DNA of 64,000 bases from Naumannella cuiyingiana (GTDB taxonomy: Bacteria > Actinomycetota > Actinomycetes > Propionibacteriales > Propionibacteriaceae), in NCBI RefSeq assembly GCF_013408305.1, contig NZ_JACBZS010000001.1, positions 1,860,001 to 1,924,000 on the forward strand, given 5' to 3'. The notes under the pieces were generated by a model. The model saw nothing but the letters and a program-made list of their open reading frames with translations. It searched no databases and was not told where the DNA came from. Below, one piece after another: positions 2,749 to 62,027 of this stretch; position 1 is the first letter of the stretch, and the number at the start of each line of letters is the position of its first letter. Made by a program: the position numbers and the translations under genes.

Positions 2749-4032
2749 ATGTCGGCCGATCTCATCTATCTGGTGTTGGGTCTCGCCCTGCTGCTCGCGG
2801 TCGTCCTGCCGATCGCGCTGTCGCGTTGTGCCGTCTCGGCGCCCATCGTCCTCGTCGGTGTGGGCGCGGTGATCGGGCTGTTGCCGTTCGACAAGTACGG
2901 CCTGGACCCGGTCAGCCAGCAGGCCTTCACCGAGCACCTGGCCGAGCTGACCGTGATCGTCGCCCTGATGGGCGTCGGGTTGGCGCTGGATCGCCCGCTC
3001 AGCCTGCTCCGCCCGCGGAGCTGGCGGGGCTGGTCGCTGACCTGGCGGTTGCTGCTGATCGCGATGCCGCTGAGCATCGCCGGCGTCGCCCTGCTCGGTT
3101 GGTGGGTGATGGGCCTGGCCCCGGCGGCCGCGCTGCTGCTCGGGGCGGCCCTGGCCCCGACCGATCCGGTGCTGGCCTCCGATGTCCAGGTCGAGGGACC
3201 ATCGGTCACCGATGATCATGACGAGATCGAGGAATCCGATCAGGTGCGGTTCGCGCTGACCTCGGAGGCGGGCCTGAACGACGGGCTGGCCTTTCCCTTC
3301 GTCTATGCGGCGATCCTGCTGGCCACGGCGGGTCCGGTCGCGGAGTGGGGTCTGAAGTGGGTCGGTTGGTATGTGATCGCGAAGATCGCCATCGGCGTGA
3401 TCATCGGTGTGGTCGGCGGCTGGTTGCTGGGCAAGATCGCGTTCCGGTCCGCTCGCGAGTCGCTGGCCGTGGCCCGCCGGGGTGAACCGTTGCTGGCACT
3501 GGGCGCGCTGCTGGCGGTCTACGGCCTCGCGGAGGTCGCCCAGGGCTACGGATTCCTGGCCGTGTTCGCGGCGGCGATGACCCTGCGCTCCCAGGAACGC
3601 GGCCACGAGTACCACGAGACGATGCATTCGATGATCGAACGCCTGGAACAGATCCTCACGCTGATGGTGCTGTTGCTGCTCGGGATCGCACTGACCAACG
3701 GGCTGCTGGCGGCGCTGACCTGGCCGGGTGTGCTGGTCGGGCTCGCGCTGGTCTTCGTCGTCCGGCCGCTGGCCGGCTGGGTCGCGCTGCGGGTGGGGCA
3801 CCGGTCGGAGCCGATCGGTGTGGCCGAGCGGTGGGCGATCGCCCTGTTCGGGGTACGCGGGGTCGGCTCGGTCTACTACCTGGCCTATGCCGAGGGTCAG
3901 GCGGTCTTCCCCGAGCTCCGCGAGCTCTGGTCGACCATGGCCTTCACCATCATCGTGTCGGTGCTGGTGCACGGGATCTTCGCGACCCCGGTGATGCGCC
4001 GCCTGGAACGGATCCGGGCCGCGGCGGCCTGA
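2749..4032 (+). CDS. CPA1-family Na+/H+ antiporter
   Basis: This integral membrane exchanger of Na+ (or K+) for protons serves pH and salt homeostasis. It has 427 residues and about 12 hydrophobic segments, typical of the bacterial NhaP/CPA1 membrane domain. Characteristic stretches are APTDPVLASDVQ near residue 141 and SEAGLNDGLAFPF near 174, which holds the Asn-Asp pair of electroneutral CPA1 exchangers. The N-terminus starts directly in the first helix. There is no long cytosolic tail, unlike the second CPA1 antiporter at 13312-15153. It ends back to back with the convergent metalloprotease gene. Confidence 0.93.
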   Translation: MSADLIYLVLGLALLLAVVLPIALSRCAVSAPIVLVGVGAVIGLLPFDKYGLDPVSQQAFTEHLAELTVIVALMGVGLALDRPLSLLRPRSWRGWSLTWRLLLIAMPLSIAGVALLGWWVMGLAPAAALLLGAALAPTDPVLASDVQVEGPSVTDDHDEIEESDQVRFALTSEAGLNDGLAFPFVYAAILLATAGPVAEWGLKWVGWYVIAKIAIGVIIGVVGGWLLGKIAFRSARESLAVARRGEPLLALGALLAVYGLAEVAQGYGFLAVFAAAMTLRSQERGHEYHETMHSMIERLEQILTLMVLLLLGIALTNGLLAALTWPGVLVGLALVFVVRPLAGWVALRVGHRSEPIGVAERWAIALFGVRGVGSVYYLAYAEGQAVFPELRELWSTMAFTIIVSVLVHGIFATPVMRRLERIRAAAA

Positions 4033-6528: not shown

Positions 6529-8045
6529 GCCCGCTCCCGCCGTTCGCCGAACAACGCCAGCACCGCCGTCGGCACCGCCGCGACCAGCACCACGGCGATC
6601 GCATAGGGGGCGGCAGCCGCGTACGAGGCAGCGCTGATCCTGCCCCAGAGCTCGGTGGCCAGCGTCTCCATGCCGGTCGGGCGCAGGAACAGCGTCGCGG
6701 GCAGTTCCTTCATCACCGTCAGGAAGACCAGCGCGCCGGCCATCGCCAGCCCGGGTGCCGCGAGGCGGCCGGTGATCGACAACCGAGCCCGCCGGGGGCT
6801 GTGGCCGAGGGTGCGCGCGACATCCTCGAGCGCCGGCGGCGCCTGCGCGACCGCCGCCTGTGTCACGCCCAGCGCCAGCGACAAGAACAAGATCACGTAC
6901 GCCATGATCAACAGGGGCAGCTCCTGGTAGACGGGACGCGCGAACCTGATCCCGAAGAACACGACGGCCAACCCGACGACCACGCCGGGCAGCGCGTGGC
7001 CGGCGTAGGCCGCCAGCTCGGCGGCCCGGGCGAGCCGACCGGGCCAGCGTACGGCCAGCACCGCGAGCGGGAACGCGATCGCCACCACACAGGCTGCGCC
7101 GAGCGCGGCGACCACCACGGTCGAACCGAGCGCCACCGCGGTCCGCTGGATCTCGAATGCCACGGCCCCGCGGCCCAGCCACTCCGCCATGCCGATCCCC
7201 GGCACGATCAGCGCCACCGCCAGCACCCCCGCGGGGGCGAGCGGCGCGACCCACCGCCAGGGACCGAGCGGCACGATCGGTTGCCGCCGCGGCACCCGCG
7301 CCGCCAGGCGCGCGCGGCCGCGTCGGGTGAGCTGCTCGATCACCACCACCAGCAACGCCAATCCGGCCAGCAGGCAACCCAGCACGGCCGCGGGGGTGAT
7401 GTCGAACAGCGATCGGTAGGAGCGGAAGATGCTCGTCGTCAGCACCTCCAGCCGCATCGTCGCGACCGCACCGAAGTCGCTCAGTGCGTACAGCCCGACC
7501 AGCAGGGCCCCGCCCGCCAGCGCGGGCCGTAGCTGCGGCATCACGATCCGCGCCCAGGTCGCCGCCTGACCGAGGCCGAGAGTTCGGGCGACGGCCTCGG
7601 CGTCCGGATCGGTACGCCGCAGCGCCGCCATCGCGGGCAGATAGACATACGGATAGGAGATGGAGGTCAACACCAGCCATGAGCCGGCGAACCCGGCCAG
7701 CGCCGGATTCACGGCGATCCAGCTCCACGCGGCCACATAGGATGGCAACGCCAGCGGCAGTCCGCACGCAACCTGCCAGAACCTGCGGCCCGGAAGGTCG
7801 GTGCGGGTGACCAGCCACGCGAGTCCGGTCCCGATCACGAGACAGCTCGCGGTCACGGCGACGGCAAGACCGATCGAGACGGCCAACAGCTCAACGGTCC
7901 GCCATCGCAGGATCAGCGAGGCAGCCCCGGCAGCCCCGCCGTCGAGCGCCCGGAGCACCAGATAGGCCAGGGGCAGCACCGCCAGTGCGATGGCGAGGAC
8001 GGCCGCCGCGGCCAGGCCGAGCGGCGGCCGCCCGACGCGGCTCAT
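6525..8045 (-). CDS. Fe(III) ABC importer, fused double permease (FbpB type)
   Basis: This membrane protein of 506 residues has two BPD_transp_1 permease modules in tandem, so one polypeptide can form the whole channel, as in FbpB/SfuB iron permeases. Each half has about six hydrophobic segments. The EAA-type loops that contact the ATPase are visible near RTDPDAEAVARTLGLGQ (first half) and PPALEDVARTLGHSPR (second half). It follows the binding-protein gene by 10 nt and overlaps the ATPase start by 4 nt, giving the order binding protein, permease, ATPase. Confidence 0.92.
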   Translation of the reverse strand: MSRVGRPPLGLAAAAVLAIALAVLPLAYLVLRALDGGAAGAASLILRWRTVELLAVSIGLAVAVTASCLVIGTGLAWLVTRTDLPGRRFWQVACGLPLALPSYVAAWSWIAVNPALAGFAGSWLVLTSISYPYVYLPAMAALRRTDPDAEAVARTLGLGQAATWARIVMPQLRPALAGGALLVGLYALSDFGAVATMRLEVLTTSIFRSYRSLFDITPAAVLGCLLAGLALLVVVIEQLTRRGRARLAARVPRRQPIVPLGPWRWVAPLAPAGVLAVALIVPGIGMAEWLGRGAVAFEIQRTAVALGSTVVVAALGAACVVAIAFPLAVLAVRWPGRLARAAELAAYAGHALPGVVVGLAVVFFGIRFARPVYQELPLLIMAYVILFLSLALGVTQAAVAQAPPALEDVARTLGHSPRRARLSITGRLAAPGLAMAGALVFLTVMKELPATLFLRPTGMETLATELWGRISAASYAAAAPYAIAVVLVAAVPTAVLALFGERRERA

Positions 8046-9108: not shown

Positions 9109-9135
9109 GTTGTTCTCCCGTTCTTGGTCAGAAAG

Positions 9136-9154
9136 TAAGATTAGGCGAACCTTA
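9136..9154 (-). promoter_or_regulatory. IdeR/DtxR-like iron box
   Basis: On the minus strand the 19 bp read TAAGGTTCGCCTAATCTTA. This agrees with the DtxR/IdeR consensus TWAGGTTAGSCTAACCTWA at 17 of 19 positions by eye. It lies just upstream of the ferric-binding protein start, where Fe(II)-loaded repressor would block transcription. It is in the gap shared with the divergent sirtuin gene, about 85 nt from that start. Confidence 0.78.
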
Positions 9155-9226
9155 GCTGCTGGTGCTCGTCGTTGCCGAACCGGGCCGCGCGACCGGTGCG
9201 GTTGGCGGCGCTGGGTGGGATCGACA

Positions 9227-9994: not shown

Positions 9995-10029
9995 TCCCCG
10001 GGCACTGGCGCGTCGCGGCGGGGCGGTCC

Positions 10030-10035
10030 TAGCGT
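10030..10035 (+). promoter_or_regulatory. -10 box of the PCD-VOC gene (leaderless)
   Basis: TAGCGT is followed by 7 nt and the ATG at 10043, with no Shine-Dalgarno sequence between. Confidence 0.45.
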
Positions 10036-10042
10036 CGGGTCC

Positions 10043-10723
10043 ATGACCTCGAACTCCGCGGATGCCGCCGCCTTCGACCCGAGCGAGCTGGAGCGGCTCG
10101 GCCTTGCCGATTGGACCTATGCCGGGGGTGTGCTGAAGGCGCGCTACGACACGGGGGACTTCCGCACGGCGGTACGCCTGCTCGACGCCGTCGCCGACGC
10201 GGCGGATGCCGCCGACCACCATCCCGATGTGACCCTCGGCTACGGCCGGATCGACTTCGCCCTGCACAGCCATGATCAGGGCGCGGTGACCGAGCGCGAT
10301 ACCGCCCTGGCCGCAACGATCTCCGGGCTCGCGGCCGAGCAGGGCGTCAGCCGCGAGGGCGGATCGCTGAGCTTCCGGGCGGGGGAGGCGGTGCCGCCGG
10401 CGGCCGTGCCGTTCTGGCTCGCCGTGCTGCGCGGTCCGAACCCGCCGGCCGGGGAGGAACTGGTGATCGGCGATGATCACGAGGTCGTCAAGATCACGGG
10501 GGACGATGGCCAGGGCCGCTTCCGGGTGAATGTCACCGTCGATGCAGGTGACGCACCGGGTGATCTTGTCCGGGCCACACTGGAGGCGCGCGGATCTCTG
10601 GTCAGCGACGAGTACGCGCCGAATTGGTGGCTGGTGGCCGATCCGGTCGGCAATCAGGCCCGGATCTGCGGCCAGACCGAGGGATTGCCGCCGCTGGCGC
10701 AGGACGGCCCGCTCGCGCGCTGA
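10043..10723 (+). CDS. pterin-4a-carbinolamine dehydratase fused to a glyoxalase/VOC-like domain
   Basis: The N-terminal half of this 226-residue protein (to about 95) is a pterin-4a-carbinolamine dehydratase domain, recognised by DHHPDVTLGYGRIDFALHSH, which matches the family pattern of His-His-Pro, an aromatic residue, a later His and a final Asp. The C-terminal half (about 110-220) ends DPVGNQARICG, the typical last strand of VOC/glyoxalase-like domains. PCD enzymes recycle 4a-hydroxytetrahydropterin; other PCD proteins act as transcription cofactors. The role of the VOC half is unknown. No aromatic amino acid hydroxylase is nearby. Confidence 0.86.
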   Translation: MTSNSADAAAFDPSELERLGLADWTYAGGVLKARYDTGDFRTAVRLLDAVADAADAADHHPDVTLGYGRIDFALHSHDQGAVTERDTALAATISGLAAEQGVSREGGSLSFRAGEAVPPAAVPFWLAVLRGPNPPAGEELVIGDDHEVVKITGDDGQGRFRVNVTVDAGDAPGDLVRATLEARGSLVSDEYAPNWWLVADPVGNQARICGQTEGLPPLAQDGPLAR

Positions 10724-10767
10724 GCGCAATCACTGTCAGGCAAGGGGATCGCGGGTGGGGAAAGAGA

Positions 10768-10798
10768 AGGCGGGAGACGTCTGACACGTCTCCCGCCT
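10768..10798 (-). terminator. hairpin, terminator-like on the minus strand
   Basis: A perfect 13-bp stem (10768-10780 with 10786-10798) has a 5-nt loop. Read on the minus strand it is followed by TTCTCTTT, a weak U-tract, while on the plus strand no T-run follows. It may once have terminated the antiporter gene whose remnant lies upstream on the minus strand, and it may also serve the PCD-VOC gene. Confidence 0.5.
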
Positions 10799-10913
10799 GC
10801 TCCGGGATTTGCGCCAGCCCGCCCCCCAGCAAGGCTGGTTCCTACTCCCGGCACCAAGTGTTGCCCCGAATGGGGTCGCTAGCAAGTGTTTCGCCGGATG
10901 GACGCCAAGCTGT

Positions 10914-11002
10914 CTCACCCTGTGATCCGGTGTCGGTGACGCCAGCGCCGGGCTCTTCCGGCGCGAGGCCGTGCGTCACGAGGGCCCGGCCTCCCCGAAG
11001 TG
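10914..11002 (-). pseudogene. decayed 3'-end remnant of a UBP-zinc-finger Na+/H+ antiporter gene
   Basis: This stretch aligns over about 90 bp with 13311-13401, the 3' end of the intact antiporter gene, with roughly 16 differences by eye, two of them single-base deletions. Read on the minus strand with two frame corrections it gives HFGEAG, then an RRWRHRHRITG end with the same TGA, against HFEETG and WRWCYRHRITG in the intact copy. Similarity fades after 11002. The intact and decayed copies lie in the same orientation on either side of the ABC cassette. Confidence 0.75.
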
Positions 11003-11190
11003 GTCGGTCGACGAAAAGCGAAACCGGACGGTCGGCCCCCCACGACGACAAAGGGTGACGACCTGTTGACATGCACCCATGCGGACGGCAACGTTGTCGG
11101 CCAACGGCCACTTTTCCGTGAGCATTGTTCGCGAGCGCGGCTGGAGCGCATATTGGTGTATTGTCCCACTTTCCCGTCGATGGACATTGA

Positions 11191-11916
11191 GTGAACGGGC
11201 TCGCGCTTCACGAGGTCAATTCGGTGCGGGGCGACTTCTCTCTCGGGCCGGTCGACCTCAATCTTGATCGGCCGATCACGTGTATTGTCGGCCCGAATGG
11301 CGCCGGGAAGTCGACCCTGATCGGATGTTGTACCGGCGCGGTTCCCCATACCGGACGCGTCTTCTGGGACGGGCGCGAAATCGGTAGGGGAGCGGTCCGG
11401 GACTGGGACGGTGTGGCATACGTCAGCGACACCTGGCCCAAGGTATTTGACGGCCTCACGGCAGCCGACTATTGGCATCTTGTCGCCGCGGTACGCCTGC
11501 ATCGCGGCACCCGCGGCAGGCTCGGCGAATGGATGGCGCGTGCCTACGCTTTGTTGGACAGCTTCGGGGCGGTGGAAATCAACAGGCCGTGTCAGTATCT
11601 GAGCTTTGGCTCGCGACGCAAGGTGCAACTCATCGGGGCGCTGATGTGCGAGCCGAGCCTGCTGTTCATCGATGAACCGCAAAACGGCCTCGACTTCGTT
11701 GCGTCGACCACGCTGGCTGCCGTGCTACGCGATCACGCGCGCCGGCCAGGCACGGTGACGGTGCTGGCCAGTCATGATCTGGGATCGGTCGCGGCGATGG
11801 CTGATGCGGTCGTTGCGCTCCGGAACGGGCAGGTCGTGCGGCGGCTGGACGGCGGACCACCGGAGGAGGTCCGAGCCGCACTCGAACGCGTCTTCCTCGC
11901 CGACCCAAGCGGTTAG
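11191..11916 (+). CDS. ABC transporter ATP-binding protein, substrate unknown
   Basis: This ATPase has 241 residues. Walker A is GPNGAGKST near residue 34 and Walker B is LLFIDEPQNGLD near 158; a switch His lies in LASHDLGSVAAMAD. The signature loop reads LSFGSRRKVQL instead of LSGGQ, a departure seen in some small ABC-2 type exporters. It is paired with the 455-residue membrane protein 6 nt downstream. Codon use is less GC-rich at third positions than in the neighbours (more ATT, GTT, TTT), suggesting recent arrival. The GTG at 11191 is the first start before the beta-strand leading to Walker A. Exported substrate unknown; peptide or antibiotic efflux is possible. Confidence 0.85.
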   Translation: MNGLALHEVNSVRGDFSLGPVDLNLDRPITCIVGPNGAGKSTLIGCCTGAVPHTGRVFWDGREIGRGAVRDWDGVAYVSDTWPKVFDGLTAADYWHLVAAVRLHRGTRGRLGEWMARAYALLDSFGAVEINRPCQYLSFGSRRKVQLIGALMCEPSLLFIDEPQNGLDFVASTTLAAVLRDHARRPGTVTVLASHDLGSVAAMADAVVALRNGQVVRRLDGGPPEEVRAALERVFLADPSG

Positions 11917-11922
11917 GCGCTC

Positions 11923-13290
11923 GTGTACACGTTGGTCATCCGAAGCCTCCTGCTCGTGGCCGGTCGACGGCTGCGCGACAAACTTGGCGTGGGCACCGGG
12001 CTGTTCGCCGTCCTTCTCGGGGCGGCCTTGTGTGCCTCCGGCTTGTTCGCCGGGATTGCTGTGCTTCGCATCGCGGAAGCGGGAGCTGTGGCGCGCGCCT
12101 TCGAGCCCGGGATCGGCTACCTGCTCGCTACGGTGGTCGGGATCGGCGTGTCGTATTCGTATCTGGTGTCCGTCGTGCTCGGCGCCGGGTTCGCCCGCGG
12201 TGTGATCGGTGATCTTGCATCGGTGCCCATCGGGAGACGGGCCGCGCGCAGGATCGGGATCGGCATGATTCTGGTCCCCCCGACGGTTGCGGGTGCGGCG
12301 GCCCTCGCCCTTCTCGTCGCCTACTATCTGGGCACTCGGACCGTGGGCTTTCCGGTGCTCGCAATCCTGGCGTTTGCGTCAGCCGTGCTGCCGATGGTGT
12401 CGGTACTGCTGACGGGTGCCGAGCGGGTCGTGGCGCATGCGCGGCGCACACCAGGAATGCCCGGCTTGACGGTGCATCTGGCGGTGGTCGGGTTGGTATC
12501 GGCCGTTGCGCTCGGTTTGTACTTCGCTGGCATCGAGGCGCTGGTGGATCACCTGTCGATCCCGCCCATCGGCTGGTTCTACACGGCCGAGGCCGGCAGT
12601 TCACCGGACTGGTGGGTGACCATTGGCTGGTTGGTGGTGTCGGCGGCCATCATCGCCGGCGCAGGTGCGGTCGAACGCTCGCAGCTTCCGCGACGGGCGG
12701 ATTCCCTGCGGTCGGGGCCTCGCCGCAACCTGGTGGCGTTCTCGGATCGTCCCGCGCTGGCGATCACCGGCAGTGTTGCCCGCGGCCTCCGGCGGAGGGT
12801 CGGGATGCTGACCGAAGTGATGCCGTGGATGCTTCCCGTGGGTCTGGCCGCCTGGCTCGGCGGTGTCGTGTTGCAGGCGAGATATGTCTGGCAGGGCACC
12901 ACCGGCATCGTCGTCGCCGGCATCCTGACGTCCGGCCCGGGGCATCGGTTGTCCGCGTTCTTGAGCCCGTTCGAGGAGTATCGGCGGCTCGGGCTCTCCT
13001 ACCGGGAGTGGGTTCTCCTACTGGCCGGGGCTCGGCTGGTCTGGTGCTTGCCCGTGACTGTCGTGGGACTCGCGGTGCTGCTCATGACGGGTGGCACGGG
13101 CGCCGCCGTCGTGGCGCTGATCGTCGGCAGCCTCGTGATCCAGGCACTGTTTGCGGCACTGTCCATGGTCGCTCGGCGCATCGGCCCGTCGGCACCGACG
13201 GCGTCGTTGTTCGGGGTCATCGTCTGCGGTGTCTGCAGCATCCTCGCGGGCCTCATCCTGGGCGCGGCCGCGGGCGACCTGTTGCCGTGA
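11923..13290 (+). CDS. polytopic membrane protein, ABC exporter permease partner
   Basis: This 455-residue protein has about ten to twelve hydrophobic segments spread over its whole length and no recognised motif. Its position 6 nt after the ATPase gene and the absence of any other membrane partner make it the likely transmembrane component. The arrangement resembles ABC-2 type systems with one large permease per ATPase. Short basic loops such as GRRAARRIG and RRRVG fit cytoplasmic connectors. The start is a GTG at 11923. The gene ends about 20 bp before the intact copy of the flanking direct repeat. Confidence 0.8.
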   Translation: MYTLVIRSLLLVAGRRLRDKLGVGTGLFAVLLGAALCASGLFAGIAVLRIAEAGAVARAFEPGIGYLLATVVGIGVSYSYLVSVVLGAGFARGVIGDLASVPIGRRAARRIGIGMILVPPTVAGAAALALLVAYYLGTRTVGFPVLAILAFASAVLPMVSVLLTGAERVVAHARRTPGMPGLTVHLAVVGLVSAVALGLYFAGIEALVDHLSIPPIGWFYTAEAGSSPDWWVTIGWLVVSAAIIAGAGAVERSQLPRRADSLRSGPRRNLVAFSDRPALAITGSVARGLRRRVGMLTEVMPWMLPVGLAAWLGGVVLQARYVWQGTTGIVVAGILTSGPGHRLSAFLSPFEEYRRLGLSYREWVLLLAGARLVWCLPVTVVGLAVLLMTGGTGAAVVALIVGSLVIQALFAALSMVARRIGPSAPTASLFGVIVCGVCSILAGLILGAAAGDLLP

Positions 13291-13310
13291 CCGGACGGCG
13301 ACCCGGGCGC

Positions 13311-13401
13311 CTCACCCGGTGATCCGGTGTCGGTAGCACCAGCGCCAGGACTCTCCCGGCTCGAAGCTGCGCATCACGGGGTGCCCGGTCTCCTCGAAGT
13401 G
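13311..13401. repeat. right copy of the imperfect direct repeat flanking the ABC cassette
   Basis: These 91 bp form the intact 3' end of the antiporter gene and match the remnant at 10914-11002 in the same orientation at about 82% identity by eye. The two copies enclose roughly 2.3 kb containing only the ABC gene pair. Confidence 0.75.
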
Positions 13402-15153
13402 CCGGGTCGCGTGCCGCCCGACGGAGGAATCGCAGCAGCCGACGTGACCGCAGGCCAGGCAGATCCGGAGCTGGACGGGATTGGTGCCGTCGCGTTCGCA
13501 GTCCGGGCAGGTCTCGGGATGATCGGGCGCGACGGTGTGCGGAGCGGCGCGCAACTCGGCGCAGTCCCCGCCCGGCGGCTCGGTCTCCAGCTCGCGCGAG
13601 CGGCGGGCATGGCGTACCTGCGCCACCTCGAGGGCGGTCTCTTCGAGGTCGAGCCCGGCGAGCACATTCTTCACGGCCTCCTGGTCGGTGCCGTCGGTCG
13701 TCCGCAGCCGGAGCAGTTCCTCGCGTTCGGCGTCGAGCATCTTCATCCGGACGCGGCGGTACGCCTCACTCGGCGTCTCGTACTCGCCGTCCGGATCGGC
13801 CAACTGCTCCCAGGCGATGTGCGAGCGGCGCTCGGCCAGGTTGCGCAGGTTCTGGCGGATCTCGTCGTCGATGTCATCGGTGGCATCGAGGGCGGCGATG
13901 CCCCGGTCGGTGGCGTGCTGGGTGAGGATCGCCTCCTGCAGGGCATCCTCCCGCGGGTCGGGACCGCGTACCCCCAGCCGGCGGGCGAGCGCGGGCAGGG
14001 TCAGGCTCTGCAGGCCGAGCGTGCCCGCGGTGACGACCATCGCAGTCAAGATCAACACCTCGCGCAGCGGGGTGTCGGCGGGCAGCGTGAGCGCGGCGGC
14101 CAGGGTGACCACGCCCCGCATCCCCGCCCACGAAGTGATCACCAGATAGGACATCGGGATGCGTTCGCCGCGGGTGAGCAACGGCCAGCCGATCAGGTTC
14201 CAGATCGGCCGGAGCACGAACACCGCGACCAATGCGATCAGCGCGAACTCGATGGCGCCGACCGTCGAGGTCGGCGACACGATCACAGCGTCGATGATCC
14301 AACGCGCCTGCAGGCCGATCAGCAGGAAGACCGCATTCTCCAGCAGGAACTGGATCGTGGCCCAGTTCACCCGCGTGCTGGTCCGCGCGGCGGCGCTCTG
14401 CACCCGGGGCGCCTGGTGCGCGACGATCACACCGGTGACCACGACCGCGACCACACCCGAGGCCTCGACCGCCTCCGCGGGCAGATAGGCCAGATAGGGG
14501 GTGATCAGCGTGATCGCCGTGGTCGAGACCGGGTCGCGGACCACACGCAGCACCCGGTTGATCACGATCGCCAAGATCACGCCGATCGCGATCCCGCCGC
14601 CCGCGGCGATCACGAAGTCGAGGGCGACCTCGCCCGGGCTGACGGTGGCGCTGAGGGCGACGATGGCGGTCCGCAGGGCGACCAGCGCGGTCGCATCGTT
14701 GAACAGCGACTCGCCCTCCAACCAGGTGACGACGCGGCGCGGCAGGCCGATCCGGCGGCCGATCGCCGAGGCGGCGACGGCATCGGGCGGTGCGACGATC
14801 GCGCCGAGGGCCAGCCCCGCCGGCAGCGGGATCGGCAGCAACCACCAGGCGAGCAGGCCGATGCCGATGGTGGTGAACAGGGTCATCCCGACCGAGAGGA
14901 AGGCGATCTTCCAGCGCTCGTTCTTCAGCTCGATCAGCGAGGACTGCCGGGCGGCGGCATACAACAGCGGCGGCAGGAGCCCGACCAGGACGAGCTCGGC
15001 GTCCAGCGGCTCCTGCGGGACGAACGGGACGTAGGAGGCGATCACGCCGACCGCCACCAGCAGCAGCGGCGCGGGCAGCGCGATCGCCCGCGCCAGCCGG
15101 GCCGTGACGAGCACCGCGACCACCACGGCGATCAGGTAGGGCAGGTTCTCCAC
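13312..15153 (-). CDS. CPA1 Na+/H+ antiporter with C-terminal UBP-type zinc finger
   Basis: This 613-residue protein has about 12 hydrophobic segments in residues 1-400, with the CPA1 motifs APPDAVAASAIG near 122 and EGESLFNDATALV near 145 (Asn-Asp ion site). A helical cytoplasmic tail with charged stretches follows. The last 70 residues carry CPDC, CLACGHVGCCDSS and HATRHFEETGHP, a UBP-type zinc finger, a fold that in eukaryotes binds the free C-terminus of ubiquitin. In actinobacteria this finger recurs on CPA1 tails, where its ligand is unknown. The start is a GTG at 15151-15153 with a weak upstream signal. The 3' end is duplicated at 10914-11002. Confidence 0.92.
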   Translation of the reverse strand: MENLPYLIAVVVAVLVTARLARAIALPAPLLLVAVGVIASYVPFVPQEPLDAELVLVGLLPPLLYAAARQSSLIELKNERWKIAFLSVGMTLFTTIGIGLLAWWLLPIPLPAGLALGAIVAPPDAVAASAIGRRIGLPRRVVTWLEGESLFNDATALVALRTAIVALSATVSPGEVALDFVIAAGGGIAIGVILAIVINRVLRVVRDPVSTTAITLITPYLAYLPAEAVEASGVVAVVVTGVIVAHQAPRVQSAAARTSTRVNWATIQFLLENAVFLLIGLQARWIIDAVIVSPTSTVGAIEFALIALVAVFVLRPIWNLIGWPLLTRGERIPMSYLVITSWAGMRGVVTLAAALTLPADTPLREVLILTAMVVTAGTLGLQSLTLPALARRLGVRGPDPREDALQEAILTQHATDRGIAALDATDDIDDEIRQNLRNLAERRSHIAWEQLADPDGEYETPSEAYRRVRMKMLDAEREELLRLRTTDGTDQEAVKNVLAGLDLEETALEVAQVRHARRSRELETEPPGGDCAELRAAPHTVAPDHPETCPDCERDGTNPVQLRICLACGHVGCCDSSVGRHATRHFEETGHPVMRSFEPGESWRWCYRHRITG

Positions 15154-15184
15154 CCGGCAATGATCGCTCAGGTATCGGCTGGTC

Positions 15185-15775
15185 TCAGTTCGGCGGTTCG
15201 AAGATGTCGTCGACGCGGATGAACCGGGTCGACAGGCGGCCGACCGCGTCCAGCCCCGCCAGGTCGACGTGCAGGCGCTCGTCGATCAGGTCGTCGCGAA
15301 CGTGCAGCGCGAGCACCCGGAGCAGGTTCAGCGTGTAGGCACCGACCTCGATCCGACGGGTACGCGTGACCTCCAGCGCCGCCGGCGCATCGGCCACCCG
15401 CAGCGCCGCCACCCGATCGCCGGGCTCGGTCGGCAGGCCGGCCGCGGCGTACTCGTCGACCTCCGGCTCGTGCGTCAGGCTGGAATGCCACATCTGCTCG
15501 AACTGCGGATAGGAGACGAGACTGATCGTCGCCCCCGGATCATGATCGAGATTGGTCAGGGAGTCCTTGTCGCGGCCGTCCGGCCGGTTGGTGATGCTGA
15601 CCATCACCGTCGGCGGATCGTTGGAGACGACATTGAAGAAGCTGAACGGCGCAAGATTCGGTACGCCGTCCGCAGACATCGTGCCCAGCCAGGCGATCGG
15701 CCGTGGCACGACGAGCGCGCTGAGCAGCTTGTACGTCCGCGACGGGCCCAGGTCGGCCGGGTCGAGAGTCGTCAT
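15185..15775 (-). CDS. flavin reductase-like (FMN-binding split barrel) protein
   Basis: This 196-residue cytoplasmic protein belongs to the flavin reductase-like domain family. It shows the N-terminal PRPIAWLGTMSADGVPNLAPFSFFNVVS, where family members bind FMN, and VMVSITNRPDGRDKDSLTNL. Members include flavin reductases feeding two-component monooxygenases and proteins of unknown function. The ATG at 15773-15775 is preferred over an upstream TTG because a TACGAT -10 lies 8 nt before it. It is 19 nt from the acyl-CoA dehydrogenase stop. Confidence 0.88.
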   Translation of the reverse strand: MTTLDPADLGPSRTYKLLSALVVPRPIAWLGTMSADGVPNLAPFSFFNVVSNDPPTVMVSITNRPDGRDKDSLTNLDHDPGATISLVSYPQFEQMWHSSLTHEPEVDEYAAAGLPTEPGDRVAALRVADAPAALEVTRTRRIEVGAYTLNLLRVLALHVRDDLIDERLHVDLAGLDAVGRLSTRFIRVDDIFEPPN

Positions 15776-15783
15776 GGTCGCCA

Positions 15784-15789
15784 ATCGTA
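15784..15789 (-). promoter_or_regulatory. -10 box of the flavin reductase-like gene
   Basis: TACGAT on the minus strand ends 8 nt before the ATG at 15775. It sits in the 19-bp gap after the acyl-CoA dehydrogenase gene, suggesting a separate, nearly leaderless transcript. Confidence 0.35.
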
Positions 15790-15794
15790 GGCCC

Positions 15795-16946
15795 TCAGAT
15801 GCCGAGCGAGCGGCCGATGATCTCCTTCATGATCTCGGTGGTTCCGCCGTAGATCGTGTGCACGCGGGTGTCGGTGTACATCCGGGAGATCTCGTACTCG
15901 CTCATGTAGCCGTAGCCGCCGTGCAACTGCACCGCCGCGTTGATGATCTTCTGGGTCAGCTCGGTCGTCCACCACTTCGCCTTCGCTGCCCCGACCGCGT
16001 CGAGCGTTCCCTCGACCATCCGGGCGATGCAGTGATCGACATAGGTACGCATCACGTCGACCTCGGTCGCCAGCTCCGCCAGCACGAACCGGTTGTGCTG
16101 GAACGCGCCGATCGGCCGGCCGAAGGCCTGCCGGGTCCGTGCGTGTTCCAGCGCCAGCGCGAACGCCTTCTCGGCGGCGGATGCCGCCGCCACGGCGATC
16201 GCGAGGCGCTCCGACGGCAGGTTTTCCATCAGGTGCGCGAAGCCGCGGTTCGGCGTACCCAGCAGATTCTCTTTCGGCACCACGACGTCGGTGAAGAACA
16301 GCTCGGCGGTGTCCTGGGCGTGCTGGCCCATCTTGGCCAGATTGCGTCCGCGCTCGAAGCCCGACATGCCGCGCTCGACGACCAGCAGCGAGATGCCCTT
16401 GTGCCCGGCATCGGGATCGGTACGGGCGACGACGATGATCAGATCGGACAGGATGCCGTTGCTGATGAAGGTCTTCTGCCCGTTCAGCAGCCAGTGATCG
16501 CCCCGGTCCTCGGCGCGGGTGGCGATGCCGTTCAGGTCCGAGCCGGCGCCCGGCTCGGTCATCGCGATCGCGGTGATCAACTCGCCGCTGCAGAAGCCGG
16601 GCAGCCAGCGTTGCTTCTGCTCGTCGTCGGCCAGTCGCACCAGGTAGGGCCCGATCACGTCGTTGTGCAGGGACAGCGCGACGCCGGAGCCGCCAAGGCG
16701 GGTGAGTTCCTCGGTCAGCACGGCGTTGTAGCGAAAATCGTCCCCCACCCCGCCGCCGCCGTACTCCTCGGCGACGAACCAGCCCAGCAGTCCCTGTTGC
16801 CCGGCGGCGCGCCAGACCTCGCGGGAGACGATGCCGTCGGCATCCCACTGCTCGGCGTGCGGCGCGATCTCGCGCGCGACGAACTCGGCCACGATCTTGC
16901 GGAAGTCCTCGTGCTCGGTGTCGAAGATCGCCCTGGGACGCCCCAT
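15795..16946 (-). CDS. acyl-CoA dehydrogenase (long-chain type)
   Basis: This FAD enzyme of 383 residues catalyses alpha-beta dehydrogenation of acyl-CoA in beta-oxidation or branched amino-acid breakdown. It shows AMTEPGAGSDLNGI (FAD/substrate contact) near residue 130, TFISNGILSDL, RTRQAFGRPIGAFQHNRF and QLHGGYGYMSEYEISRMY. Residues near the end read YGGTTEI, with Gly where short- and medium-chain enzymes keep the catalytic Glu, while LPSERLAIA supplies a Glu at the place used by long-chain and isovaleryl-CoA dehydrogenases. A strong AAGGAGG lies 8 nt before the ATG. No partner electron-transfer flavoprotein genes are in the window. Confidence 0.93.
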   Translation of the reverse strand: MGRPRAIFDTEHEDFRKIVAEFVAREIAPHAEQWDADGIVSREVWRAAGQQGLLGWFVAEEYGGGGVGDDFRYNAVLTEELTRLGGSGVALSLHNDVIGPYLVRLADDEQKQRWLPGFCSGELITAIAMTEPGAGSDLNGIATRAEDRGDHWLLNGQKTFISNGILSDLIIVVARTDPDAGHKGISLLVVERGMSGFERGRNLAKMGQHAQDTAELFFTDVVVPKENLLGTPNRGFAHLMENLPSERLAIAVAAASAAEKAFALALEHARTRQAFGRPIGAFQHNRFVLAELATEVDVMRTYVDHCIARMVEGTLDAVGAAKAKWWTTELTQKIINAAVQLHGGYGYMSEYEISRMYTDTRVHTIYGGTTEIMKEIIGRSLGI

Positions 16947-17071
16947 CGCCAGCCTCCTTGCCGGTGCTCGGACGGCCCATCCTGCCAAGGCGGCCGGGTG
17001 GGGAGCGGGTGGGGTCGGCGCGGGCGGCTCGGCACGCGGCGGATGTCGGCGGCGCGCGGCAGAATGCCGCC

Positions 17072-18601
17072 ATGCTGCTGAACGAGGTCGCCGAGACCTC
17101 GGCGGCGCTCGCCGCCACCCGCTCACGCAATGCCAAGCGCGATCTGCTCGCCGACCTGCTCCGGCGTGCCGAGCCCGCGGACCTGCCCGTGCTGACCAGC
17201 TACCTGGCCGGCGAGCTGCGGCAGCGGCGGACGGGCGTCGGGTGGGCCTCGCTCGGCAAACTGCCCGGGCCTGCCGAGCGACCGACATTGACGCTGGCGG
17301 GGGTCGATGCGGCGTTCGAGCGGATCGCCGCGCTGTCCGGCCCGGGCTCCCAGGGGGCGCGGGCGTTCGCGTTGGCGGAGCTGTTCGGCGCGGCGACCGC
17401 GCCCGAGCAGCGGCTGCTCCGCGGGCTGGTCTCGGGCGAGCTGCGCCAGGGCGCGCTGGATGCCGCCATCGTCGATGCCGTCGCCGCCGCGTCCGGCGTA
17501 CCGTTGGCCGACCTGCGGCGGGCCGTGATGCTGAGCGGCGCGACCGCACCGGTCGCCGAGGCGGCGATGGCCGGGGGCGCCGAGGCGGTGCGCGCGTTCA
17601 CGCTCGAGGTCGGTCGGCCGGTACGCCCGATGCTCGCCGGCTCCGCACCCGATGTCGCCGCCGCCTTCGCCAAGCTCTCCGGCCCGGTCGCGGTGGACAC
17701 CAAGCTCGACGGGATCCGCATCCAGGCGCACAAGTCCGGTGACCGGGTGCGGCTGTTCACCCGCAGCCTGGACGAGGTGACCGAGCGGCTGGGCGATGTG
17801 GCGGAGGTGATCGCCGCGCTGCCGGCCGAGGAGTTGATCATCGATGCCGAGGTGCTGGCCAGCGACGATCGAGGGCGCCCGCGGCCGTTCCAGGAGACCG
17901 CCGCCAGGACCGCCACCCAAGAGGTGCCGGCCGGAGCGGGGCACCGGCTGGTGCCGGCGATCTTCGACGTGCTGGCGATCGACGGCGAGGCGCTGATCGA
18001 CCAGCCGCTGGAGGTACGCCAGCGCCGGCTCGACCAACTGGTGCCGCAGGAGTACCGGATCCGGCGCCTCGATCGCCCCGATGCCGACGCCGCCCGGGCC
18101 TTCTTCGATGCCGTGATCGCCGACGGGCACGAAGGCGTGGTGATCAAGGACCTGGCGGCCCCCTACAGCGCCGGGCGCCGCGGATCCGGCTGGATCAAGG
18201 TCAAGCCGCGACACACTCTCGATCTTGTCGTGCTGGCCGTCGAGCGGGGGAGCGGTCGTCGGCGCGGGATGCTGTCGAACATCCATCTCGGCGCGCGTGA
18301 CCCCGGGACCGGCGAGTTCGTGATGTTGGGCAAGACCTTCAAGGGAATGACCGACGAGATGCTCGCCTGGCAGACCCGGCGGTTCACCGAGCTGGCCGAC
18401 GGGCCGGTCGGCGACGACGACTGGGTGATCAAGCTCCGCCCCGAGCAGGTCGTCGAGATCGCCTTCGACGGGGTGCAGCGCTCGACCCGCTATCCCGGCG
18501 GCGTTGCGCTGCGCTTCGCCCGCGTGCTGCGCTACCGCGACGACAAGCGCGCCGACGAGGCGGACACCATCGAGCAGGTACGCGCGCTCGGCGCGGGCTG
18601 A
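17072..18601 (+). CDS. ATP-dependent DNA ligase (LigB-like)
   Basis: This 509-residue enzyme seals nicks using ATP. The adenylation site KLDG (in DTKLDGIRIQAHK) is near residue 212, motif III is FTRSLDEVTERL, motif IV EGVVIKD and motif V GWIKVKP; an OB-fold domain follows. An N-terminal ligase domain of about 170 residues precedes the catalytic core, as in mycobacterial LigB. No polymerase or nuclease domain of LigD is fused. Actinobacteria also carry the NAD+-dependent replicative LigA, so this is an accessory repair ligase. The ATG at 17072 is chosen; the frame is open to 16958 but that part is low-complexity. It ends back to back with the convergent monooxygenase. Confidence 0.92.
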   Translation: MLLNEVAETSAALAATRSRNAKRDLLADLLRRAEPADLPVLTSYLAGELRQRRTGVGWASLGKLPGPAERPTLTLAGVDAAFERIAALSGPGSQGARAFALAELFGAATAPEQRLLRGLVSGELRQGALDAAIVDAVAAASGVPLADLRRAVMLSGATAPVAEAAMAGGAEAVRAFTLEVGRPVRPMLAGSAPDVAAAFAKLSGPVAVDTKLDGIRIQAHKSGDRVRLFTRSLDEVTERLGDVAEVIAALPAEELIIDAEVLASDDRGRPRPFQETAARTATQEVPAGAGHRLVPAIFDVLAIDGEALIDQPLEVRQRRLDQLVPQEYRIRRLDRPDADAARAFFDAVIADGHEGVVIKDLAAPYSAGRRGSGWIKVKPRHTLDLVVLAVERGSGRRRGMLSNIHLGARDPGTGEFVMLGKTFKGMTDEMLAWQTRRFTELADGPVGDDDWVIKLRPEQVVEIAFDGVQRSTRYPGGVALRFARVLRYRDDKRADEADTIEQVRALGAG

Positions 18602-38949: not shown

Positions 38950-38995
38950 GCCGCGCCGCCGAAGATCCTCGCCCCCGCCCCCGCCCCCGCCCCAC

Positions 38996-39068
38996 CCCCG
39001 AATTGTTTCCGTAGTTATGCCCGCCATTCGGCTCGAATGGCGGGCATAACTACGGAAACAATTCGGGG
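38996..39068. terminator. 35-bp perfect inverted repeat between convergent genes
   Basis: The left arm 38996-39030 and right arm 39034-39068 are exact complements with a 3-nt loop GCT. The arms start CCCCGAATTG and end GCCATTCG. The position between agmatine deiminase and glpK suits a bidirectional terminator, but the stem is far longer than needed and no T-run flanks it. Its right arm resembles that of the hairpin at 57214-57295. A purine-rich stretch follows to 39190 with no gene. Confidence 0.7.
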
Positions 39069-39191
39069 AGAGGGGTGGGTGGAGTCGGGGTGGTGAATGA
39101 GGAGAGGGGTGAGTGGAGCGGGGGTGGATGGAGCTGCCGGGGAGAGGAATGGATGGAGAGGCGGGCTGCGTGTGGCCAGGGGGGCGCGGGC

Positions 39192-57213: not shown

Positions 57214-57295
57214 CCGCTCCCCAAGCGTGTCGTCAGTTATCGCCGCCCGCCGGCCCCGGCGGGCGGCGATAACTGACGACACGTTTCGGGAGCGG
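57214..57295. terminator. about 38-bp imperfect inverted repeat between convergent genes
   Basis: A perfect 26-bp stem (57226-57251 with 57258-57283) with a GGCCCC loop is extended by three further pairs, one mismatch and an outer 8-bp stem CCGCTCCC/GGGAGCGG. It lies between GNAT and the ASCH-HhH gene and probably terminates both. Its right arm resembles that of the hairpin at 38996-39068. Confidence 0.7.
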
Positions 57296-61019: not shown

Positions 61020-61313
61020 ATGGGCACGCATCAGCACGGCTACATCGGCGACAAGGACGACTACCTCAAGCGGTTGCGCCGGATCGAGGGGCAGGTCCGC
61101 GGCCTGCATCGGATGGTCGACGAGGAGCAGTACTGCATCGACATCCTGACCCAGGTCAGCGCCGTGACGAAGGCCCTGCAGGCGGTCTCGTTGGGCCTGT
61201 TGGAGGAGCACATGGGTCACTGCGTGGTGAATGCCGCCCGCGAGAGCGACGAGGCGGCGGACGCGAAGGTACGCGAGGCCGCCGACGCCATCGCCAGGTT
61301 GGTGCGCTCGTGA
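61020..61313 (+). CDS. csoR: CsoR-family copper-sensing repressor 1
   Basis: This 97-residue all-helical repressor has a Cu(I) site of Cys in YCIDILTQV near residue 42 and His/Cys in EEHMGHCVV, spaced H-x3-C as in CsoR. LKRLRRIEGQVRGLHRM is the DNA-contacting helix. GGAGG lies 4 nt before the ATG. The stop overlaps the GTG of copZ (GTGA). Sensor and chaperone form an operon, but no copper ATPase lies nearby. Confidence 0.92.
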   Translation: MGTHQHGYIGDKDDYLKRLRRIEGQVRGLHRMVDEEQYCIDILTQVSAVTKALQAVSLGLLEEHMGHCVVNAARESDEAADAKVREAADAIARLVRS

Positions 61314-61513: not shown

Positions 61514-61577
61514 GCCGCGGCGTACCCGCTGAGATCCTGCGGGGCAGCGGGCGCCCTTCTCGCCACCTCCCCGGGAT

Positions 61578-61647
61578 GCTGACCCAACACCTGTTCGCTC
61601 ACCCAACAGCTATAGGCGTTGGGTGAGCGAACAGGTGTTGGGTCAGC
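61578..61647. terminator. 30-bp perfect inverted repeat after copZ
   Basis: The left arm 61578-61607 and right arm 61618-61647 are exact complements with a 10-nt loop. The arms start GCTGACCCAACACCTG. It lies between copZ and the second csoR, both on the plus strand, and may insulate the second operon from the first. The sequence is unlike the other two long hairpins. Confidence 0.65.
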
Positions 61648-61690
61648 GTCGGCGGAGGGGGTCGGGGCGGCGAACAGCTGGCGGGGGCCG

Positions 61691-61709: not shown

Positions 61710-62027
61710 ATGACGGTCATGAACGAGCAGGGCATGAGCGAGCAGGGCCACGGCTACATCGGCGACAAGGATGCCTACCTGAAGCGGCTGCGCCGGATCG
61801 AGGGGCAGGCGCGTGGCCTGCAGCGGATGGTGGAGAACGACGAGTACTGCATCGACATCCTGACCCAGGTCAGCGCCATGACGAAGGCGCTGCAGGCGGT
61901 CTCCCTCGGACTGCTCGACGACCATCTTCGGCACTGCGTGGTAGACGCAGCCAAGGAGGGTGACGAGGCGGCCGAGGCCAAGGTGCGCGAGGCCTCCGAC
62001 GCCATCGCCCGGCTGGTCCGCTCCTGA
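61710..62027 (+). CDS. csoR: CsoR-family copper-sensing repressor 2
   Basis: This 105-residue paralogue of the repressor at 61020-61313 is highly similar over its length from GYIGDKD onward: LKRLRRIEGQARGLQRM, the ligand Cys in YCIDILTQV and His/Cys in DDHLRHCVV are all kept. The N-terminus varies; ATG at 61710, 61719 or 61734 could be used. Gene duplication with divergence of the extra N-terminus is likely. It is monocistronic and convergent with the reductase gene, 1 bp apart. Confidence 0.9.
   Translation: MTVMNEQGMSEQGHGYIGDKDAYLKRLRRIEGQARGLQRMVENDEYCIDILTQVSAMTKALQAVSLGLLDDHLRHCVVDAAKEGDEAAEAKVREASDAIARLVRS

Follow-up and report, generated by a model that had tools for sequence, protein, structure and literature searches.

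An intact and a decayed copy of an antiporter gene end flank an atypical ABC gene pair in Naumannella cuiyingiana

In the genome of Naumannella cuiyingiana, the 3' end of a Na+/H+ antiporter gene occurs twice in the same orientation, and two genes of an ABC transporter lie between the copies. This arrangement raises the question of whether the ABC pair was inserted behind the antiporter gene, duplicating the gene end, and by which route it would have entered. All positions given below are those of the window, the stretch of 64,000 nucleotides that was analyzed.

Two copies of the antiporter gene end

The intact gene (positions 13312 to 15153, minus strand) encodes a CPA1-type Na+/H+ antiporter with a C-terminal zf-UBP finger (PF00999, E = 1.5e-52; PF02148, E = 1.4e-11; TIGR00831, 280.8 bits against a cutoff of 279.6). 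Its composition and codon usage are typical of the genome. In the genome-contig scan the antiporter had no close relative, the best identities being about 50%. The last 31 codons and the stop codon, which end in the protein tail CYRHRITG, form the intact copy of the repeat (13311 to 13409, minus strand). The decayed copy, also on the minus strand, lies at 10914 to 11010 and differs by 17 substitutions and two 1-base deletions. When the two were aligned in direct orientation, 97 bases were aligned and 80 of 99 columns were identical, with a local score of 99; both single-base deletions fall in the left copy. The ABC pair is thus bordered on both sides by a direct repeat of the target sequence, 97 bp on the left and 99 bp on the right.

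The repeat score of 99 compares with a maximum of 33 in 1,000 dinucleotide shuffles and with 35 for the highest-scoring of the unrelated 410-base stretches taken from the window. The initial annotation had described, by eye, a gene end present twice in direct orientation, about 82% identical, with a left copy decayed by two deletions, and had named an alignment at background level as an outcome that would speak against it. The description was right to within a few bases, and the score is far above background. The starts of both copies also stand; the high ends lie about 8 bases further, at 11010 (first given as 11002) and 13409 (first given as 13401). A possible extension of the repeat toward the permease stop codon (10894 to 10913 against 13291 to 13310) shows 11 of 20 identical bases, a level reached by 4.1% of the 20-mers in the window. 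A DNA search of the whole genome with the flanking stretch from 10724 to 11190 returned the antiporter tail (E = 1.1e-17) and a match between a hairpin in this stretch and its own other arm (E = 2.7e-6). There was no third copy of this flanking DNA in the genome; beyond the tail and the hairpin arm, nothing was better than E = 0.41.

Within 464 kb of the host genome, made up of the window and 20 further stretches of 20 kb each, 56 rows of short-range repeats exceeded the score limit, a base rate that is indicative only, because the gene finder was crude, with a coverage of 76% and the ABC ATPase uncalled. Among the gene ends in these 464 kb, that of the antiporter alone has a separate intergenic copy, the one near case being a tandem array (L148) that reaches 25 bases into the 3' end of a gene. 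The remaining rows, in classes read partly from coordinates alone, are a modular repetitive stretch (L132), repeats within genes, tandem or intergenic repeats, palindromes, and neighboring pairs of similar genes.

Origin and decay of the left copy

The CYRHRITG tail was not seen among the listed antiporter tails of relatives, many of which read like YVDE-LG; one of the two comparisons listed loci scoring above 60 with the intact copy or above 50 with the left copy. Against these tails the intact copy scored up to 106, whereas the left copy scored at most 36, compared with 99 against the intact copy and a shuffle maximum of 33. Since the unusual tail is common to both copies and the relatives' tails are unlike it, we conclude that the left copy arose from this gene within its own lineage.

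The left copy might instead descend from an independent zf-UBP paralogue that has decayed, without being a copy of the antiporter tail. Matches to zf-UBP are frequent in the relatives, and the host genome has a second zf-UBP locus. However, a paralogue is hardly credible given how low the left copy scores against the relatives' antiporter tails; in addition, the whole-genome DNA search, listed up to E = 10, lacks the second zf-UBP locus, and the local alignment extends only to 11010, a position within the finger.

The 17 substitutions of the left copy, 13 of them transitions, are distributed over codon positions 1, 2, and 3 in the ratio 7:7:3. A copy that diverged while still coding is expected to differ mainly at third positions; here the two copies differ at 3 of 33 third positions. 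With 3/17, the deficit at this codon position does not by itself reach significance (binomial P = 0.13). The majority base of 69 related tails, comparable at 15 sites, equals the base of the intact copy 11 times, that of the left copy once, and neither 3 times. Taken together, the distribution of substitutions and the agreement of the majority with the intact copy point to the left copy being a decayed duplicate of the antiporter tail, presumably under neutral decay. These figures lend no support to the suggestion of the initial annotation that an integrating element had restored the 3' end of its target with a diverged copy. The comparison also offers a simple way to distinguish the two cases, in that differences at synonymous sites indicate a restored 3' end and differences at all codon positions a decayed duplicate.

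The enclosed ABC pair

The first gene between the repeats (11191 to 11916, plus strand) encodes an ABC transporter ATPase (PF00005, E = 1e-17), in whose translation Walker A, the LSFGS signature, Walker B, and the H-loop are readable. The second (11923 to 13290, plus strand) begins 6 bp behind the ATPase stop codon and encodes a protein of 455 amino acids. This protein had no match in Pfam even at E = 10 and none in NCBIfam or PADLOC, and its single-sequence structure model is all helical at low confidence (pLDDT 46.9). Its position directly behind the ATPase gene and its helical nature suggest a permease, and the pair is most likely an exporter. This orphan pair may belong to an unrecognized transporter family. 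The leader in front of the pair (11011 to 11190) has a low GC content of 58.9% and presumably carries the promoter; no sigma-70 consensus site was found in it.

The composition of the two genes was compared with 267 called genes of at least 600 nucleotides from the 464 kb of host genome. The ATPase gene has a GC content of 65.4% (1.5th percentile), a GC3 of 75.6% (0.7th percentile), and a codon score below those of all 267 genes. The putative permease gene deviates less, with a GC content of 68.6% (16th percentile), a GC3 of 82.7% (5th percentile), and a codon score at the 5th percentile. The less GC-rich codons noted from the letters alone are thereby borne out for both genes. The pair was probably acquired from elsewhere, although its atypical composition may also reflect weak codon selection.

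We searched for homologues of the pair at several taxonomic levels. The putative permease gave only three fragment matches (E = 4.7e-4 to 7.3e-4) in 56 genomes of relatives, 390 other genomes of the order, and 393 other genomes of the class, samples that overlap and of which the latter two were scored with at most four candidates per genome. It had no match in plasmids or phages, and the 8 pattern matches in viral contigs included no relative of it. Among 395 further genomes of the phylum, none gave an ATPase match at E = 1e-30, with up to seven candidates scored per genome. The DNA matches listed for 197 other genomes of the family, with two candidates scored per genome, fell on the antiporter gene, the gene on the left of the repeats, and the ATPase gene around the nucleotide-binding loop, and none fell on the permease gene or the left tail copy. 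A donor of the pair was not found among the genomes, plasmids, phages, and viral contigs sampled, with limited numbers of candidates scored per genome.

Flanks and the locus in relatives

A hairpin of 13 pairs with a T-rich tail lies on the minus strand at 10768 to 10798, with a fold z score of -5.0 on this strand compared with -2.8 on the plus strand. It is oriented in the direction of the antiporter gene, about 116 nucleotides beyond the decayed stop codon of the left copy. The stretch directly behind the intact antiporter stop (13200 to 13311) has no special structure (z = +0.9). A hairpin beyond the left copy and none behind the intact stop fits an insertion that separated the gene from its terminator. 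The proposal that this hairpin was the ancestral terminator of the antiporter gene remains plausible in view of its z score and its T-rich tail. However, the position of the hairpin is not proof of insertion, because it also lies 45 nucleotides behind the left neighbor, a gene convergent with the antiporter gene, and may serve that gene instead. This neighbor (10043 to 10723, plus strand) encodes a pterin-4a-carbinolamine dehydratase (PCD) domain (PF01329, E = 1.6e-18) and a second, glyoxalase-like domain just under the cutoff (PF18029, 23.5 bits against 23.6).

The hairpin also bears on a scenario with no insertion, in which the ABC pair was already the neighbor of the antiporter gene and a later local duplication copied the tail across the pair. 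The left copy comes from the resident lineage and bears no sign of a foreign allele, in keeping with such a duplication. The atypical composition of the pair and its lack of homologues in the relatives sampled speak against it, as does a leftward hairpin that lies beyond the left copy and has no counterpart directly behind the intact stop. On balance, a local duplication is decidedly doubtful.

The sole congener compared (G001) keeps the flanking SIR2 and ligase genes 6.9 kb apart with unrelated genes between them, which by eye from their open reading frames are an alpha/beta hydrolase gene, fatty acid oxidation genes, and a thioredoxin-reductase-like gene. Nothing in this interval matched the antiporter, the PCD gene, or the ABC pair; an antiporter of 42% identity is located elsewhere in the congener. 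The interval from SIR2 to the ATP-dependent DNA ligase is of similar length in the window (9995 to 17072) and in G001 (locus L047), 7.1 and 6.9 kb, respectively, and its gene content differs. Because other genes lie between conserved flanks in G001, the whole interval is variable and does not offer an empty site there. An antiporter gene convergent with a PCD gene was found at none of 114 loci scanned, with flanks of 1.5 to 8 kb. At one of these loci, in a member of the family (L025), a 35%-identical PCD gene lies upstream of the antiporter gene in the same direction.

Downstream of antiporter homologues, no direct tail copy above background was seen at any of 107 other loci, only 60 of which had at least 6 kb of downstream sequence; flanks of about 1.5 kb could not reveal a copy 2.3 kb away, many of the homologues are distant, and two of the loci (L012 and L050) are the same gene. 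At one locus, that of Streptacidiphilus melanogenes (L085), an inverted partial copy of the 3'-end region of the antiporter homologue lies about 5.7 kb downstream, with a score of 66 compared with 33 in 20 shuffles.

Route of entry

The initial annotation had favored an integrating element and named recombination with foreign DNA as a second option. As a remnant of a site-specific integrating element, the locus would have arisen when a since-lost integrase joined an attP site carrying the antiporter 3' end to the chromosomal copy, and the displaced original 3' end would then have decayed. Genomic islands at the 3' ends of genes leave a duplicate 3' end on the far side of the insert, and the duplicated gene 3' end across the ABC pair resembles them. 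The anatomy agrees in that a gene 3' end is the target, its stop codon closes the repeat block, the copy that would have been displaced is on the same side as the terminator-like hairpin, and 23 of 24 bases are identical in the stretch at the stop codon. In the rest of the repeat 57 of 73 bases are identical, a difference that falls short of significance (Fisher P = 0.06).

Further evidence weakens the case for such an element. No recombinase of the tyrosine or serine type, the two whose domains were searched for, lies between the repeats. The two long open reading frames there are those of the ABC ATPase and of the helical protein without a family match, as the initial annotation had recognized in stating that no integrase is present. 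The genome has two genes with a Phage_integrase domain, at 2.98 and 3.19 Mb of contig C1 and thus about 1.1 and 1.3 Mb away, and one gene with a Resolvase domain on a second contig of 32 kb (C2). There is also no excess of third-position differences (3/17, with a binomial P of 0.13 for so few), and none of the 107 other loci (60 with at least 6 kb downstream) has a direct tail copy above background downstream. In contrast to genomic islands at gene 3' ends, the locus has no integrase domain nearby, its att core is unclear, it lacks a synonymous excess, and no recurrent use of the site was seen. An integrating element is therefore less likely than recombination, and we consider it unlikely.

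The reading that we prefer, and to which we give somewhat better than even weight, is that the ABC pair was acquired and inserted behind the antiporter stop codon by recombination without a recombinase, duplicating the gene end. Recombination is the simplest account because the copy is of resident origin and no such recombinase is nearby. The ABC pair would have arrived on a circle or a fragment that also carried part of an antiporter tail, derived from this lineage or one very close to it. It may have entered by a single crossover or by homology-facilitated illegitimate recombination (HFIR), in which the junction is homologous on one side and illegitimate on the other, with no dedicated recombinase, and would have come to lie just behind the antiporter stop, between the gene and its terminator. 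In this process the last 97 bp or so of the antiporter gene, or more, would have been duplicated, so that a direct repeat borders the pair on each side. The right copy would have kept coding for the C terminus, and the left copy, severed from the gene, would have decayed.

Several lines of evidence argue for this insertion. The repeat is far above chance, and the genome search gave no further copy; the left copy derives from the gene's own lineage and shows a neutral decay pattern; the ABC genes, the ATPase gene most of all, are atypical in composition, and the pair is without a close homologue in the samples searched; and a terminator-like hairpin faces leftward beyond the left copy. Against it stand the lack of a donor in the samples searched, the congener interval without the antiporter, the PCD gene, or the ABC pair, and the antiporter-PCD convergence found at 0 of 114 loci. 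Furthermore, for pairing by RecA, 97 bp of homology is little, but the block may originally have extended further. The repeat, the identity of its decayed copy, the unusual composition of the pair, and the hairpin with its orientation are observed directly; from the balance of this evidence we infer that an insertion occurred, in the direction and by the route outlined. The locus is best read as an insertion of the ABC pair with duplication of the antiporter gene end, and recombination with foreign DNA fits better than the element first proposed.

Two variants of recombination were considered as well. A block from a relative, consisting of the ABC pair and the 3' part of an antiporter gene, could have displaced the resident 3' part and left the resident tail as a remnant. 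Such a replacement would yield the same anatomy as the insertion that we favor, but the overall codon usage of the antiporter gene is typical. The donor and recipient alleles would also have to be nearly identical, since the unusual tail is present in both copies and only 3 of 33 third positions differ. We therefore give the replacement little weight. As a second variant, the locus could be a cargo-only cassette without a recombinase of its own, which would use the antiporter tail as docking homology, loop out as a circle, and reenter the same gene end in related strains. This is very improbable; if true, the tail of a housekeeping gene would serve as an attachment site.

Comparison with known insertions

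A precedent for the insertion that we favor comes from an HFIR test in Escherichia coli, in which single-crossover integrants, 14 clones of which were sequenced, had partial gene duplications of 109 to 950 bp (PMC3240628). The locus described here likewise consists of an insert plus a partial duplication of the end of one gene. Unlike here, the integrants in the excerpted report arose from a laboratory plasmid with a homologous segment under a selected marker, and their copies were fresh.

Insertions with long target duplications (Nobusato et al. 2000, as cited in excerpts of PMC1643837, PMC3031569, and PMC3154945) comprise genes flanked by long duplications of the target, frequently with restriction-modification genes, and were recognized by the comparison of two strains. 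The ABC pair is similarly flanked by a long direct target duplication. In the present case, unlike in those excerpted, an ABC pair makes up the cargo, the duplication has aged and decayed, and an empty site for comparison is lacking. For the displacement of type VI secretion system (T6SS) effectors in Vibrio cholerae, an HFIR-like route that leaves old 3' parts behind has been proposed, as excerpts of the report state (PMC5361080). The likeness again lies in foreign genes inserted with an old 3' part remaining; the Vibrio model as excerpted includes a conserved upstream anchor and orphan immunity genes, whereas only a tail fragment is present here. The kind of event is thus already known, and the locus looks like the scar of an ordinary insertion by recombination, with no new element. 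Its value is as a readable scar of gene gain in a high-GC genome, apparently made without a mobile-element enzyme.

Other repeats in the genome

The genome contains a dispersed palindromic, REP-like element, seen in the window at 57214 to 57295, in the sampled stretch L138 at 3580 to 3641, and at other places in the genome. Its half-site, GTCAGTTATCGCCGCC, occurs 27 times in the genome with up to 2 mismatches, compared with 0 for the reversed control, and 22 of the 27 occurrences are in inverted pairs that start 30 bp apart. A near-perfect palindrome of 94 bp at 38986 to 39079 of the window has arms with GTTATGCCCGCC and is perhaps related to this family. A second family of long palindromes, with the unit CACCCAACA / TGTTGGGTG, is represented in the window at 61575 to 61650 and in stretch L151 at 7909 to 7970 and 9120 to 9193, where the copies enclose a called gene at a distance of about 1.2 kb from each other.

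Neighboring copies of a small gene were found at 61035 to 61313 and 61749 to 62027 of the window, 83% identical over 279 bp. The product resembles a CsoR-type metal-sensing repressor. Between the two copies lies an open reading frame whose product resembles a heavy-metal-associated domain.
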